Below the pieces are notes generated by a model, which saw only the letters and a program-made list of their open reading frames with translations, was not told the DNA's origin and made no database searches. This document shows, piece by piece, positions 30,662 through 36,687 of a stretch of 64,000 bases of DNA. A program made the translations under genes and the position numbers. The DNA comes from an uncultured bacterium (lineage in GTDB: Bacteria; Bacillota; Clostridia; Lachnospirales; Lachnospiraceae): assembly GCA_947381965.1 (NCBI GenBank), contig CANCXX010000013.1:31283-95282 (forward strand), given 5' to 3'. Position 1 is the first letter of the stretch; every line of letters begins with the position of its first letter.

Positions 30662-31014
30662 AGGTTCTCCTTTTTTCCATAAATAATCAGTTTGTATATT
30701 CTGCCGCCTGACAGCGCCCCAAGCTTGATACCCTGTTGCTTGCATTGGAATTTGTGATTTAACGTTTATAAGCCACAATATTTTAATACAATAATTGGGA
30801 AGAAGAGATTGAAATAACAATCAATAAATTATGAAATAAAAGAAATTATTTTTCTTACAAGAACAGTATATAGTTTATCATATTGTATAAATAAAGTCTA
30901 GTAAATTTTCTCTTTTTCACTAAAATATTATGTATACCCTTTTGCTGCTTAACGGAAGATGGAAGCATGGGGCGGAACTGTAAAACAGAATCAGAACTGG
31001 AACAGGAGGCATGT
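30662..31014. other. Divergent intergenic region, tfoX-like / HelD
   Basis: This AT-rich stretch of about 350 bases separates two divergent genes and should hold both promoters. I see no convincing -35/-10 pair, no repeat and no RNA structure that I can name. Confidence 0.4.
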
Positions 31015-34000
31015 ATGAGCGCAGAAAGTGAAAAAAAGAATCCGGGAGTGTCAAAACAGGAAGAGGAGCGTTATCTGGCGCAGACACTGGCGGTGGTAAA
31101 TGATAATGTAGACAATTACGGGCGTGAGGTTGCGCGGATGCAGGAAGACATAGATGAGATGCTTGCCCATTACCATGATAATGATGCGGAGGTCCTTACG
31201 ATTTTGAATAATACAGTTACCCTGCATGAACACATGAAACGTGCGCTTATACGGAATGAGAAGGCATTAAACAAGCCTTATTTTGGCAGAATTATTTTTC
31301 GCGATGAAGATAGTGGCAGGGAAGAATCCCTTTATATAGGAAAGGGAGGAATTTCAAAGGATACGACCCACTGGATGGTGGTGGACTGGCGGGCGCCAGT
31401 GGCTAACGCTTATTATGAACATAATCTTGGAAAATGCAGTTATACGGCGCCAGGGGGCGTGAAGATAAAAATAGACTTAAAACGTAAGCGCACCTATGAA
31501 ATTGAGAATGGAAAGCTTTTAGATTACTTTGACAGTGAAGTAATTGCCAATGACGACCTTTTGACTAAATATCTGGCCAAAAACAAGCAGGCGGTGCTGG
31601 GAGAGATTGTAGCTACGATCCAAAAGGAGCAGAATGAAATTATCAGGAAATCCCCTTATCATAATGTGATTGTACAGGGAGTGGCCGGCTCAGGAAAAAC
31701 TACAGTGGCCATGCACAGAATTTCTTATATTTTATACAATTATGCGGAGCGGTTCCGGCCAGATGATTTTTATATTGTTGGAAGCAACCGGATACTGCTC
31801 AATTATATTACGGGAGTGCTGCCGGATTTGGATGTATATGGGGTACGTCAGATGACCATGGAACAGCTTTTTGTCCGGCTTTTATATGAGGATTGGGATG
31901 AAAAAAAATACAAAATCAAAAGCACGGAAAAAAGCGGAAAAAGGGGAAGCATAAAAGGCAGGTCAGAATGGTTTAGGGATTTGGAAGAATATTGCCGAAG
32001 GCTGGAATGGGATGTGATTCCAAGGGACACTGTACTGCTAAACCCAAAACAGTTTGTAGAAGGTTTCCGAAATGGAAAGACAGGCGTCTTTGACGAGACA
32101 GCAGGAAAAATAATGAATCCGAAAAGTTTTGTCAGACTGCTGGAGAAGGAGGCGGTGGAAGATTATATCAGACAAAATCCAACCATATCCATCCAGAGCA
32201 AAATTGATATGCTGAACCAGCGTCTGAACGCTAAAATTAAGGAAGAGTTTCTGGGAAAGGGAATTAAATATACGGAAGCGGAGAGAAAAGCCATTTTGAA
32301 AGCCTACCGGGGAAGATATGGAGGAAAAAAATGGAAGCCCTCTATTTTTGAAATGTATAAGGATTTTCTGAAAAAGCAGGCAGCGAAGGGGCAGGCGGTG
32401 GATATCCCGGAGAAGGAATTTGATGTATATGATTTATCCGCCTTAGCCTATTTATATAAAAGGGTGAAGGAGCAGGAAGTAATCAGCGAGGCCCATCATG
32501 TGGTAATTGACGAGGCTCAGGACTTTGGAATGATGGCTTACCATGTGCTGAAATTCTGTATTTACGGCTGCACTTATACCATTATGGGAGATGTTTCCCA
32601 GAACATTCATTTTGGATATGGCTTAAATGACTGGGAGGAATTAAAAAAGCTGTTTTTGACAGACGCCATGGACAGCTTCGGACTTTTGAAGAAAAGTTAC
32701 CGGAACACAGTGGAAATATCAGATTTCGCCACTAAAATTTTACATCATGGACAGTTTTCCATTTACCCGGTGGAGCCGATTATCAGGCATGGAAAGCCAG
32801 TGCAGGTAAGCAGGCTGTCCGACAGACAGACACTGATACAAAAGGCGGCGGAGGTCTGCAGAAAATGGCAGAGCGGCGGACTGGATACCATTGCAGTTAT
32901 TTGCCGCAATGAAGAAAGCGCCCGGAAGGTGTCAAAAGAGATCGGAAAATATGTGGATGTGATGGAAGGCGATTTGGAAAAGGCGGAGTTTGGAAAGGGG
33001 ATTATGGTACTGCCTGTGGAATATACCAAAGGACTGGAATTTGATGCCGTACTGATTTTAAATCCCACAAGGAAGGAATATCCTGTGGAGGATGGACATG
33101 CAAAGCTGCTGTATGTGGCGGCCACCCGTGCCCTTCATGAACTATGTGTGCTTTTCTGTGAGGAACTGACAGGTCTGATTACGGATCCGCTGCCTGAAAA
33201 AAGAATATCCATTGTCCGTCCGGCGGCAAATGAAATATATAACAGGAAGGAAAAGGAACAAAAAGAACGGAGAATACCAGACGGAAGCAGAGAGGCCACA
33301 AAGAGGAGCCGTCCGGCAGCGGTAAGCGTTAAGGCGGTCACGCCGGAGGAGAAAAAACCCTTTATCAGCAGACAGCTGACAAAACCATCTCTGCAAAATG
33401 TCCAAAGTAAGGAGATATCTGAAATATCTAATGTGGAAAGGCATCAGGGTTTGGGAGAGAAAAAGCCGGAAACAGACAAATGCCGCCGGAAGGAAAGGGA
33501 ATATGAATTTGGAGACATGCCTGCCACGGAAAGCTTACGCCCGGCAGGACATGGAAAAATAGATCTTTCGGTGCGGTGGTTTGCCAAACAGCCGGACGGT
33601 CTTTATATTCAAAGCCGGTATGGAACACTGCGTCTGTGTCCTGTGGAGGATGCAATTATCCGTGTGACCTTTGCAAGGGGGCCGCAGATAACGGAAGGCG
33701 TGTACCCAGGGATTAGAATTAACAGGACGGAGAGAGCATGGATGTACAAAGAATCAGGAGGTTTGGTGGAACTTCTGACAGACGAGCTTTGTCTGCAGGT
33801 GGATAAAAAAAGCGGCGCTATCCGTTATATGATGCGGGATAAAAATCTCCTGCTTTCAGAGCGGGAAATAGAATGCCGTCAGATAGAGTGGGGAAACAAT
33901 AAAGATGTGAAGGCATGGCTTTATCTGGAATGGCAGAAGAAGGAAAATATTTACGGATTTGGAATGAAGGAGAAAGGCGGATTGAATCTTAGGGGAACAG

Positions 34001-34224
34001 CAAGGTATATTTCCCACAAAGAGGAGGGAGAGGCGCTTCCTTTTATCCTTTCAGATAGGGGGTATGGACTTCTTCTGGCGGCGGACGCTGCCATATGCTG
34101 TGACGTTCCGGCATATGGTTCTTACCTTTATATGGAGAACCGGTTATATATGGATTATTACTTTATTGCAGGGAAAAGTCAGAAAAAAATACTAGACGCC
34201 TATGCAAGAATTTACGGAAAATAA
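31015..34224 (+). CDS. HelD-like UvrD-family helicase fused to a GH31-like N-terminal domain
   Basis: A 1069-residue protein. Residues about 15-110 form the long helical N-terminal region of HelD (AVVNDNVDNYGREVARMQEDIDEM). The helicase has Walker A GVAGSGKTTVAMHRISYIL, a Walker B-like HVVIDEAQDFG, and GLEFDAVLIL and YVAATRALHEL near 690-720. HelD removes stalled RNA polymerase from DNA. After a charged linker (about 730-855) the last 215 residues look like the N-terminal beta-sandwich of GH31 glycosidases: LRLCPVEDAIIRVTFARG, ENIYGFGMKEKGG, LPFILSDRGYGLLL and DYYFIAGKSQKKILDAYARIYGK. It stops exactly where a GH31 catalytic barrel would begin. ATG 31015 follows AGGAGG; ATG 30967 is weaker. 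A catalytic role of the tail is unlikely. Confidence 0.85.
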   Translation: MSAESEKKNPGVSKQEEERYLAQTLAVVNDNVDNYGREVARMQEDIDEMLAHYHDNDAEVLTILNNTVTLHEHMKRALIRNEKALNKPYFGRIIFRDEDSGREESLYIGKGGISKDTTHWMVVDWRAPVANAYYEHNLGKCSYTAPGGVKIKIDLKRKRTYEIENGKLLDYFDSEVIANDDLLTKYLAKNKQAVLGEIVATIQKEQNEIIRKSPYHNVIVQGVAGSGKTTVAMHRISYILYNYAERFRPDDFYIVGSNRILLNYITGVLPDLDVYGVRQMTMEQLFVRLLYEDWDEKKYKIKSTEKSGKRGSIKGRSEWFRDLEEYCRRLEWDVIPRDTVLLNPKQFVEGFRNGKTGVFDETAGKIMNPKSFVRLLEKEAVEDYIRQNPTISIQSKIDMLNQRLNAKIKEEFLGKGIKYTEAERKAILKAYRGRYGGKKWKPSIFEMYKDFLKKQAAKGQAVDIPEKEFDVYDLSALAYLYKRVKEQEVISEAHHVVIDEAQDFGMMAYHVLKFCIYGCTYTIMGDVSQNIHFGYGLNDWEELKKLFLTDAMDSFGLLKKSYRNTVEISDFATKILHHGQFSIYPVEPIIRHGKPVQVSRLSDRQTLIQKAAEVCRKWQSGGLDTIAVICRNEESARKVSKEIGKYVDVMEGDLEKAEFGKGIMVLPVEYTKGLEFDAVLILNPTRKEYPVEDGHAKLLYVAATRALHELCVLFCEELTGLITDPLPEKRISIVRPAANEIYNRKEKEQKERRIPDGSREATKRSRPAAVSVKAVTPEEKKPFISRQLTKPSLQNVQSKEISEISNVERHQGLGEKKPETDKCRRKEREYEFGDMPATESLRPAGHGKIDLSVRWFAKQPDGLYIQSRYGTLRLCPVEDAIIRVTFARGPQITEGVYPGIRINRTERAWMYKESGGLVELLTDELCLQVDKKSGAIRYMMRDKNLLLSEREIECRQIEWGNNKDVKAWLYLEWQKKENIYGFGMKEKGGLNLRGTARYISHKEEGEALPFILSDRGYGLLLAADAAICCDVPAYGSYLYMENRLYMDYYFIAGKSQKKILDAYARIYGK

Positions 34225-34356
34225 GAAATAAATAATCAAATAAAGAAAGAAAAGCAGAAACTCTTCCGGTTTAATTGACGAAATGTGCAAAAGTAGATAT
34301 AATAACTTCAAATGTGCCTGATAACAGCTATGAAATTCATCTAAGGATGTGATTAT

Positions 34357-36687
34357 ATGACGGAAGAAAAGGACAACAGACAGAATAAAAATGAGGTGGT
34401 TTTTGATGATGGCAGGATTGAGGCCATTCAGGAGTTTCAAAGTCCCGAACAATTATACAGGGATTTAATTTTGCGCGTGCAGAAATATCATCCATCAGAT
34501 GATATTTCACTGATAGAAAAGGCATATCTTCTGGCGGCAAAAGCCCATAAAGACCAGGTGCGCAAGTCAGGAGAGCCATATATTATCCATCCTTTGTGTG
34601 TGGCAATTGTTCTGGCGGATTTGGAGATGGATAAGGAAACCATTGCGGCTGGACTTTTGCATGATGTGATTGAAGACACTATCATGACAGAGGATGAGAT
34701 TAAGGAACAGTTTGGCAGTGATGTGGCGCTTTTAGTGGATGGCGTTACCAAACTGGAACAGCTGAAATTTACCAATGAGAATGGGGACAGGACTCTGGAT
34801 CGTTTTGAGATGCAGGCGGAGAATCTGCGGAAAATGTTTCTTGCCATGGCAAAGGACATCCGTGTGATTATCATTAAGCTGGCTGACCGGCTGCATAATA
34901 TGAGAACCCTAAAATATAAAAGCCTGGAAGGACAGCACCGGATCGCCAGGGAGACGATGGATATTTATGCGCCCATTGCCCAGCGTCTTGGGATATCAAA
35001 AATTAAAGTGGAGCTGGACGATTTATCTTTAAAATATTTGGAGCCGGAGGCATATTATGACCTGGTGGATAAGATTGCCGTGCGTAAAAGTGTCCGTGAA
35101 AAATATATTCAGAATATTGTGGACGAAGTCAGCGAACACATAAAAAATGCCGGTATCGTAGCCCAGATTGACGGCCGGGTTAAACATTTCTTCAGTATTT
35201 ACAAAAAAATGAAGAACCAGAATAAGACCATTGACCAGATTTATGATTTATTTGCCGTACGTATTATTGTGGATACGGTAAAAGACTGTTATGCAGCCTT
35301 AGGGGTGATACATGAAATGTATAAGCCTATACCAGGGCGTTTTAAGGATTATATTGCCATGCCCAAGGCAAATATGTACCAGTCCTTGCATACAACGCTG
35401 ATTGGCACCAGCGGACAGCCTTTTGAGATACAAATCCGCACTTATGAAATGCACAAGGCGGCTGAATATGGGATTGCCGCCCACTGGAAATATAAAGTGG
35501 AGTCAGACGGCAAAAAAATAGAGGATTCTGAGGAAGAAAAACTTTCCTGGCTTAGACAGATTCTGGAATGGCAGCAGGATATGTCGGACAACAGGGAATT
35601 TATGAATCTTTTAAAAAGCGATCTGGATTTGTTTTCTGACAGCGTATACTGTTTTACGCCTACTGGCGAGGTGAAAAATCTTCCGGCAGGCTCCACGCCT
35701 ATTGATTTTGCCTACAGCATTCACAGCGCAGTGGGAAACAGGATGATTGGTGCGAGGGTAAACGGTAAACTGGTTACGATTGAATATGAAATCAAAAACG
35801 GTGACCGAATAGAAATTATGACCTCCCAAAATTCCAAGGGACCCAGCCGTGACTGGCTGAATGTGGTAAAGAGCACGCAGGCAAAAAATAAAATTAATCA
35901 ATGGTTTAAAAATGAATTTAAGGAAGAAAATATTGTCAAGGGTAACAATCTTTTGATGAATTACTGCAGAATGAAGAACATAGATACTGCAGAAATCATT
36001 AAGCCGGAATATATGGAAGTCATTATGCGAAAGTATGGGTTCCGGGATTGGGATTCTGTGTTGGCAGCAGTCGGTCATGGCGGCCTGAAAGAAGGGCAGA
36101 TCATCAATAAGATGGTGGAAAGCTATGATAAAAAGCATAAAAAAGTAATATCGAATGAAGAAGTGCTTGCGGCGGTTAACGGAAACGGAAATGACCAGCC
36201 AAGAAAACCGGTACAGATTAAGTCTAAAAGCGGAATTACGGTAAAAGGCATCCATGATGTGGCGGTGCGGTTTTCCAAATGTTGTTCTCCCGTGCCGGGA
36301 GATGAAATTGTGGGGTTTGTCACCAGAGGAAGAGGCGTATCCATCCATAGAACAGACTGCATTAACATGCTGAACCTTCCGGAAGAAGAAAGAGTAAGAC
36401 TGATTGACGCCGAGTGGGAAGGCTCCCCGGATGAAACGGGAAGTGAGAAATATCTGGCGGAAATTAAAATATTTGCGGATAACAGAAACGGACTTTTGGC
36501 GGATATCACCCGTGCCCTGACCGAAAAAAATATTGATATTCTTTCCATGAATACAAGAGCAAGCAGACAGGGAACGGCGACTTTGGCAATTTCCTTTGAA
36601 ATCAGCAACAGGGATGAGCTAAACAGAGTTATTGACAAAATCAGTTCCATAGAAAGTGTGCAGGATATAGAAAGAACTACCGGATAA
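34357..36687 (+). CDS. rel: Bifunctional (p)ppGpp synthetase/hydrolase Rel
   Basis: A 776-residue long RSH protein controlling the stringent response. The HD hydrolase carries LLHDVIEDT (H102-D103); the synthetase follows with MYQSLHTT near residue 340; then come the TGS domain (VYCFTPTGEVKNLPAGSTPIDFAY in pieces), a conserved cysteine region RFSKCCSPVPGDEIVGF and a C-terminal ACT domain. Both catalytic halves look intact. ATG 34357 has AAGGA 9 bases upstream. In Clostridia this is usually the only long RSH enzyme. Confidence 0.95.
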   Translation: MTEEKDNRQNKNEVVFDDGRIEAIQEFQSPEQLYRDLILRVQKYHPSDDISLIEKAYLLAAKAHKDQVRKSGEPYIIHPLCVAIVLADLEMDKETIAAGLLHDVIEDTIMTEDEIKEQFGSDVALLVDGVTKLEQLKFTNENGDRTLDRFEMQAENLRKMFLAMAKDIRVIIIKLADRLHNMRTLKYKSLEGQHRIARETMDIYAPIAQRLGISKIKVELDDLSLKYLEPEAYYDLVDKIAVRKSVREKYIQNIVDEVSEHIKNAGIVAQIDGRVKHFFSIYKKMKNQNKTIDQIYDLFAVRIIVDTVKDCYAALGVIHEMYKPIPGRFKDYIAMPKANMYQSLHTTLIGTSGQPFEIQIRTYEMHKAAEYGIAAHWKYKVESDGKKIEDSEEEKLSWLRQILEWQQDMSDNREFMNLLKSDLDLFSDSVYCFTPTGEVKNLPAGSTPIDFAYSIHSAVGNRMIGARVNGKLVTIEYEIKNGDRIEIMTSQNSKGPSRDWLNVVKSTQAKNKINQWFKNEFKEENIVKGNNLLMNYCRMKNIDTAEIIKPEYMEVIMRKYGFRDWDSVLAAVGHGGLKEGQIINKMVESYDKKHKKVISNEEVLAAVNGNGNDQPRKPVQIKSKSGITVKGIHDVAVRFSKCCSPVPGDEIVGFVTRGRGVSIHRTDCINMLNLPEEERVRLIDAEWEGSPDETGSEKYLAEIKIFADNRNGLLADITRALTEKNIDILSMNTRASRQGTATLAISFEISNRDELNRVIDKISSIESVQDIERTTG

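Follow-up and report, generated by a model that had tools for sequence, protein, structure and literature searches.

HelD is a recently explained recycler of RNA polymerase, and the parts described in it are two arms and a motor. In GH31 glycosidases, the N-terminal beta-sandwich is, to our knowledge, an accessory domain and not a free-standing sugar binder. The HelD of Bacillus subtilis (PDB 6wvk, 6zca, 6zfb) has 774 residues and no domain beyond 2A; the classes of HelD are described in PMC8655204, whose available main text contains neither the term "glycos" nor "fusion". In PcrA, according to the available text of two papers (PMC5397179, PMC8318588), a poorly conserved linker is followed by a conserved beta domain that binds RNA polymerase, the Tudor domain of PcrA/UvrD being bound to the beta subunit.

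The protein reported here is shown by computation to consist of a HelD and an exapted, barrel-less GH31 N-domain on a long disordered tether. The first-pass annotation had called this architecture undescribed, and in a literature search that covered mostly papers outside subscription no report of it was found among the matches listed. Both halves are of known kinds, and as far as found it is their lasting combination that is new.

A HelD motor joined to a GH31 N-terminal sandwich

The window, a stretch of 64,000 nucleotides from an uncultured bacterium of the Lachnospiraceae, carries on its forward strand an intact frame (31015-34224) for a protein of 1069 amino acids, with a further in-frame ATG at 30967, upstream of the ATG at 31015 (Table 1). 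Downstream there is no other frame of GH31 type; the gene that comes next starts at 34357 and encodes a RelA/SpoT-type protein, so named from its sequence, and the earlier description of a single unbroken frame, with neither frameshift nor second GH31 frame, is borne out. A promoter-like site with 11/12 matches (34275-34303) lies between helD and the RelA/SpoT-type gene and suggests that the latter may be transcribed separately; the region holds 17 such sites where 9.4 would be expected.

Table 1. Features of the fusion gene, in window positions and protein residues
Feature	Residues (aa)	Positions	Strand	Remark
Shine-Dalgarno-like AGGAGG		31004..31009	+	read directly; ends 5 nt before ATG 31015
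HelD motor (secondary channel arm, 1A, clamp arm, 2A)	1-726	31015..33192	+	domain names by homology
Walker A GVAGSGKT	222-229	31678..31701	+	motif position invariant in 44/44
Variable linker rich in A/P/S/K	727-831	33193..33507	+	low model confidence, variable length, high dN/dS
FGxxP box FGDMPATESLRPAGHGKIDLSVRW	832-855	33508..33579	+	overlaps first tail residues
GH31 N-terminal beta-sandwich without catalytic barrel	846-1069	33550..34221	+	profile, predicted structure, fold comparison

The motor was matched by the NCBIfam model HelD_BACSU with E 3.4e-103 and 346 bits, which falls short of the NCBI equivalog cut-off of NF041464 (419 bits), and the protein is therefore called HelD-type and Class I-like; the same model matches all 44 rows of the relatives' alignment at E 0.001 or better. 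Since the motor is much closer to the B. subtilis structure 6wvk (E 1.4e-71) than to mycobacterial HelD 6yxu (E 6e-26), it was assigned to the Class I type. The motif positions that were checked (Walker A, DEAQD and the later UvrD-type motifs) are invariant in 44/44 aligned relatives, among them W125, K228 and the DEAQD of residues 499-503, so the helicase with a full motif set seen at first reading stands. The available text of the B. subtilis structure paper (PMC7749167) names K239 of Walker A and the cage residue W137, and these align to K228 and W125 of the fusion. In the predicted full-length model, the secondary channel arm forms a hairpin of two helices (residues 14-51 and 58-86) with the acidic tip HYHDND; D55 is kept in 42/44 and E59 in 44/44 relatives. 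The homologous motor, the equivalents of K239 and W137 and the modelled acidic-tipped hairpin are thus features shared with B. subtilis HelD, to which the fusion adds about 335 residues of linker, FGxxP box and GH31 sandwich. We infer a Class I-like motor that would recycle RNA polymerase as other HelD proteins do.

The identification of the last part as a barrel-less GH31 N-domain, also made at first reading, is supported by the agreement of sequence, profiles, predicted structure and fold comparison. When the tail was scanned alone, PF13802 matched with 34.4 bits (E 3.5e-8), above the gathering threshold of 27, and across the tails the same model reaches E 0.01 or better in 27/44, the remaining 17 being missed. 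The tail aligns to positions 49-259 of the 771 positions of the PRK10658 alpha-xylosidase, and an hhalign comparison of the tail profile with GH31 N-domains gave 100% (E 3.5e-46) against 0.5% for a reversed control, so that the likeness is not due to chance. The modelled tail has the GH31 N-domain fold by fold comparison; its blocks have a pLDDT of mostly 81-96, with two near 70, and the structures among the matches listed are GH31 sandwiches with no Tudor domain among them, families beyond that list remaining possible. Both the profile search and the structure prediction that had been proposed as checks therefore came out for GH31. The fusion proteins end between -20 and +37 residues relative to the end of the window's tail, which leaves no space for a catalytic barrel and sets them apart from GH31 enzymes. 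Routine Pfam annotation at E 0.001 does not show the tail in the proteins of Eisenbergiella tayi (L096) and Acetatifactor muris (L114), and the NCBIfam alpha-xylosidase model matches 18/44 fusions; such annotation can thus miss the tail.

Between motor and tail, residues 727-827 are modelled as disordered (pLDDT < 50), and the distance from residue 734 to F832 varies from 69 to 237 residues, with a median of 100 in 74 rows. The FGxxP box that follows is nearly invariant in these rows (F832 74/74, G833 72/74, P836 73/74, and L841, G845, H846 and W855 each 74/74), and of the 20 fusions of other genera the 17 that could be read have FGxxP in 15 and the variants FRxxP and YGxxP in two. It was unmatched in the first 60 residues of nine distinct GH31 reading frames (ten rows, L058 and L190 being one gene), and a search of the genome for further copies at E 10 returned solely the fusion's own. 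The box may fold together with the sandwich, because the blocks 831-840 and 841-850 have a pLDDT of 83 and 68, beside the mostly 81-96 of the sandwich. The M of the FGDMP box is not favoured as a separate start for the tail; this M occurs in just 50/74 rows, and an SD-like GGAG lies 2 nt away.

Distribution and origin of the fusion

A HelD of this kind was found in 28/36 other genomes of the genus, with the tail in the same frame in 28/28. The eight genomes that showed none (G001, G010, G011, G012, G018, G026, G027, G034) include drafts that are less than 95% complete, and one of them, G026, has an ordinary HelD of 732 aa only. The fusion is mostly the sole HelD seen in the genus, a second HelD match being present in 1/28 carriers (G030) with at most nine candidates scored per genome. 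In a sample of 299 genomes from 298 genera of the family, the tail was matched at E 0.001 in 105, many of these matches being GH31 enzymes, and at least 23 genera carry the fusion: in 20 the frame is complete and exceeds 1000 aa, in two it is truncated at a contig end (G115, and G042, in which the helicase part itself was not seen) and in one it has a frameshift in the linker (G216). HelD-type proteins were matched at E 1e-30 in 96 of the same genomes, from which it follows that most HelD of the family are tail-less.

Across the order (295 genomes), every fusion among the matches listed fell within the same family, the search adding two members of one further genus (G598, G603), and the longest HelD frames of other families of the order (864, 897 and 858 aa) gave no tail match. 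At the level of the phylum (398 genomes), the window's own protein was the sole one returned at E 1e-60, a cut-off too strict to pick up distant fusions. A collection of named sequences was scanned with 13 closer tail rows, a query that favours close relatives; 106 loci encode relatives, and of the 80 retained 76 are complete single frames of more than 950 aa. The other four are L130, which starts at a contig edge with both parts present, L063, truncated where its contig stops, and the pair L090 and L101, both broken in the linker. The titles name Lachnospiraceae, its genera or broader labels (Clostridium sp., Clostridiales, Clostridia, bacterium), and the named strains include Eisenbergiella tayi, E. 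porci, Acetatifactor muris and Parablautia intestinalis. All three broken fusions break inside the linker, L090 by one stop and L101 and L176 by a frameshift, with helicase and tail otherwise readable. Two further frames were encountered: L183 (G099), a HelD-like frame of 1032 aa with the motor match starting at about residue 374, has either a long N-terminal extension of a different sort or a chance-open frame, and L189 (G228) is a GH31 similar to the tail (45% over tail residues 122-224) in a frame of 506 aa, against 789-799 aa in its relatives.

In a helicase-only tree of 49 rows, 29 tail-bearing proteins (L176 being counted among them although its frame is broken) are split from 20 tail-less ones by a single branch with support 99/98. 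Because the tail-bearing rows lie on one side of this branch, the simplest reading is that the tail was gained once in the Lachnospiraceae and then inherited. The 20 tail-less proteins end 5 to 26 residues past the TRALHE of motif VI, and those of the sister group (L143, L150, L151, L152) 13 to 16 residues past it. The first-pass annotation had asked whether the tail might be the normal C-terminus of this class, and the answer is divided: it is so for one clade of Lachnospiraceae HelD and not for the 20 tail-less HelD compared with it. When tails and GH31 N-domains were placed in one tree, the 44 tails stood apart from ten GH31 enzymes with support 98/100, one row (L002) having a very long branch (3.43) and two rows (L002 and L193) having been entered untrimmed. 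Among enzymes, the closest to the tail are GH31 proteins about 790-800 aa long from the same order, two of them from the same genus (G031, G033).

Constraint and changed use of the tail

Mean dN divided by mean dS comes to 0.107 in the helicase and 0.128 in the tail (15 independent pairs each, from 74 rows), and to 0.386 in linker residues 735-815 (11 pairs); the value of 0.488 for residues 816-845 (14 pairs) belongs to a region that mixes variable linker with conserved box. Computed in this way, the codon comparison shows the tail to be kept by selection.

When 44 tails were compared with eight GH31 N-domains (PF13802; 5jou, 7kmp, 6jr6 and YicI represent the family of alpha-xylosidases and alpha-glucosidases), the framework was kept, with some motifs lost and other residues newly fixed. 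The T(P/V)DG insert and the Q of LGQ are present in 8/8 GH31 N-domains and 0/44 tails, and the Q and N of QxN in 8/8 against 1/44 and 2/44, respectively. Newly fixed in the tails are C184 (43/44), A151 (42/44) and S155 (40/44), each 0/8 in GH31, and R110 and K130 stand at 43/44 and 40/44, each 1/8 in GH31 (tail numbering; 845 is added for protein numbering). The motifs lost presumably face the active site in GH31. This computation shows a pattern of a GH31 sandwich exapted and put to changed use, on a helicase and without its barrel, and the loss of GH31-invariant motifs makes sugar binding by the tail less likely. Of the "carbohydrate-binding-type fold" first proposed, the sandwich of GH31 origin is retained, whereas the carbohydrate-binding label goes beyond the evidence, the GH31-invariant motifs being missing from nearly all tails. 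Because many gut-type Lachnospiraceae keep the pairing of HelD with a GH31 domain, the borrowed domain probably has a new job.

Possible roles of the tethered domain

The reading that is preferred, with a probability of roughly 0.5, is that of a Class I-type HelD whose sandwich, gained once, kept by selection and tethered, acts as a docking domain. The motor would insert its two arms in a stalled RNA polymerase, by way of the secondary channel and the main channel, and open the polymerase using ATP, as other HelD proteins do, and the sandwich with the FGxxP box would dock, either holding HelD on the polymerase or bringing it to a partner at stalled complexes, in a manner likened to the tethered Tudor domain of PcrA/UvrD; the face on which the barrel was formerly packed is a guess for the new binding face. 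Docking is favoured because the layout resembles that of PcrA/UvrD (5DMA), for which the available text likewise describes an SF1 motor, a disordered, fast-changing linker and a small C-terminal beta domain more conserved than the linker. The Tudor domain probably differs from the tail in fold, and its binding to RNA polymerase is described where that of the tail is putative.

Several routes to a partner were followed. In RpoB (26 rows, 17 with tail and nine without), there was no residue that separates the two groups and no insertion that tracks the tail, except for one gap column near the C-terminus, and in RpoC (25 rows, 16 and nine) neither a separating residue nor a tracking insertion was seen, so that a partner via an RNA polymerase insertion was set aside; because what the PcrA domain binds is an insert specific to a lineage, the result speaks mildly against a copied mechanism. 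A partner via the neighbourhood was likewise set aside, no neighbour gene being conserved across the 80 named loci (2500 nt downstream covered in 73/80 and 1500 nt upstream in 69/80). The window's RelA/SpoT-type, MBL, DHH and minus-strand neighbours had no match in these loci, the ABC-transporter ATPase (11), permease (1) and DUF3048-type (4) matches were all weak and scattered, and the biggest neighbour family of any kind, which occurs on both sides, reached 15/80 loci. The delta subunit (TIGR04567) was absent from 40/40 genomes with and without tail, the control being positive in B. subtilis and L. lactis. Its absence does not discriminate, and a tail of positive net charge (median +5, range -1 to +10) is unlike the acidic delta, which led to the rejection of the tail as a delta substitute.

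It is doubtful that the tail dispenses with an outside partner and instead bends back onto the motor to inhibit or gate it, or joins two HelD molecules in a dimer. Such self-contact would fit the cohesion of tail and motor in one clade and the conserved FGxxP box at their junction; a linker that ranges from 69 to 237 residues would, however, be unusual for a tight intramolecular lock, and the full-length model gives no confident arrangement of tail on motor (pTM 0.46), a value compatible with contact too. A sandwich with a sugar, a sugar phosphate or some glycosylated compound as its ligand, through which HelD is switched by carbon state or by a glycosylated polymerase inhibitor, is unlikely. 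The fold derives from a sugar enzyme, and the strong constraint and the newly fixed residues could reflect a new pocket; against this, the motifs kept by 8/8 related GH31 N-domains are gone, the GH31 sandwich is by general knowledge accessory, and no neighbour family recurs in more than 15/80 loci. A more specific and distinctly less probable form of this idea is that the glycosidase domain, turned sensor, senses a sugar signal or detects glycosylated inhibitors of RNA polymerase and via the tether tells HelD when or where to strip polymerase; if true, transcription recycling in gut Lachnospiraceae would be coupled directly to carbohydrate state.

That the tail is an inert remnant of gene fusion, kept by chance, is very improbable: the three broken frames would suit it, their breaks all lying in the linker (L090, L101, L176), but the dN/dS of the tail is 0.128 against 0.386 in the linker, and the frame is the same in 28/28 genus carriers and single and complete in 76/80 named loci. 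A chimera of two genes made by assembly or annotation, conceivable for a window from a 92-contig assembly, can practically be dismissed, as the fusion is found in many separate assemblies, including those of Eisenbergiella tayi DSM 26961, Acetatifactor muris DSM 23669 and Parablautia intestinalis D8-82.

An entire clade of HelD has thus acquired one more conserved domain, derived from a glycosidase, and clearly illustrates how part of a metabolic enzyme can be recruited onto a transcription factor. Targeting of HelD by a docking domain, as for PcrA and Mfd, becomes testable in bacteria in which the fusion is often the sole HelD seen.
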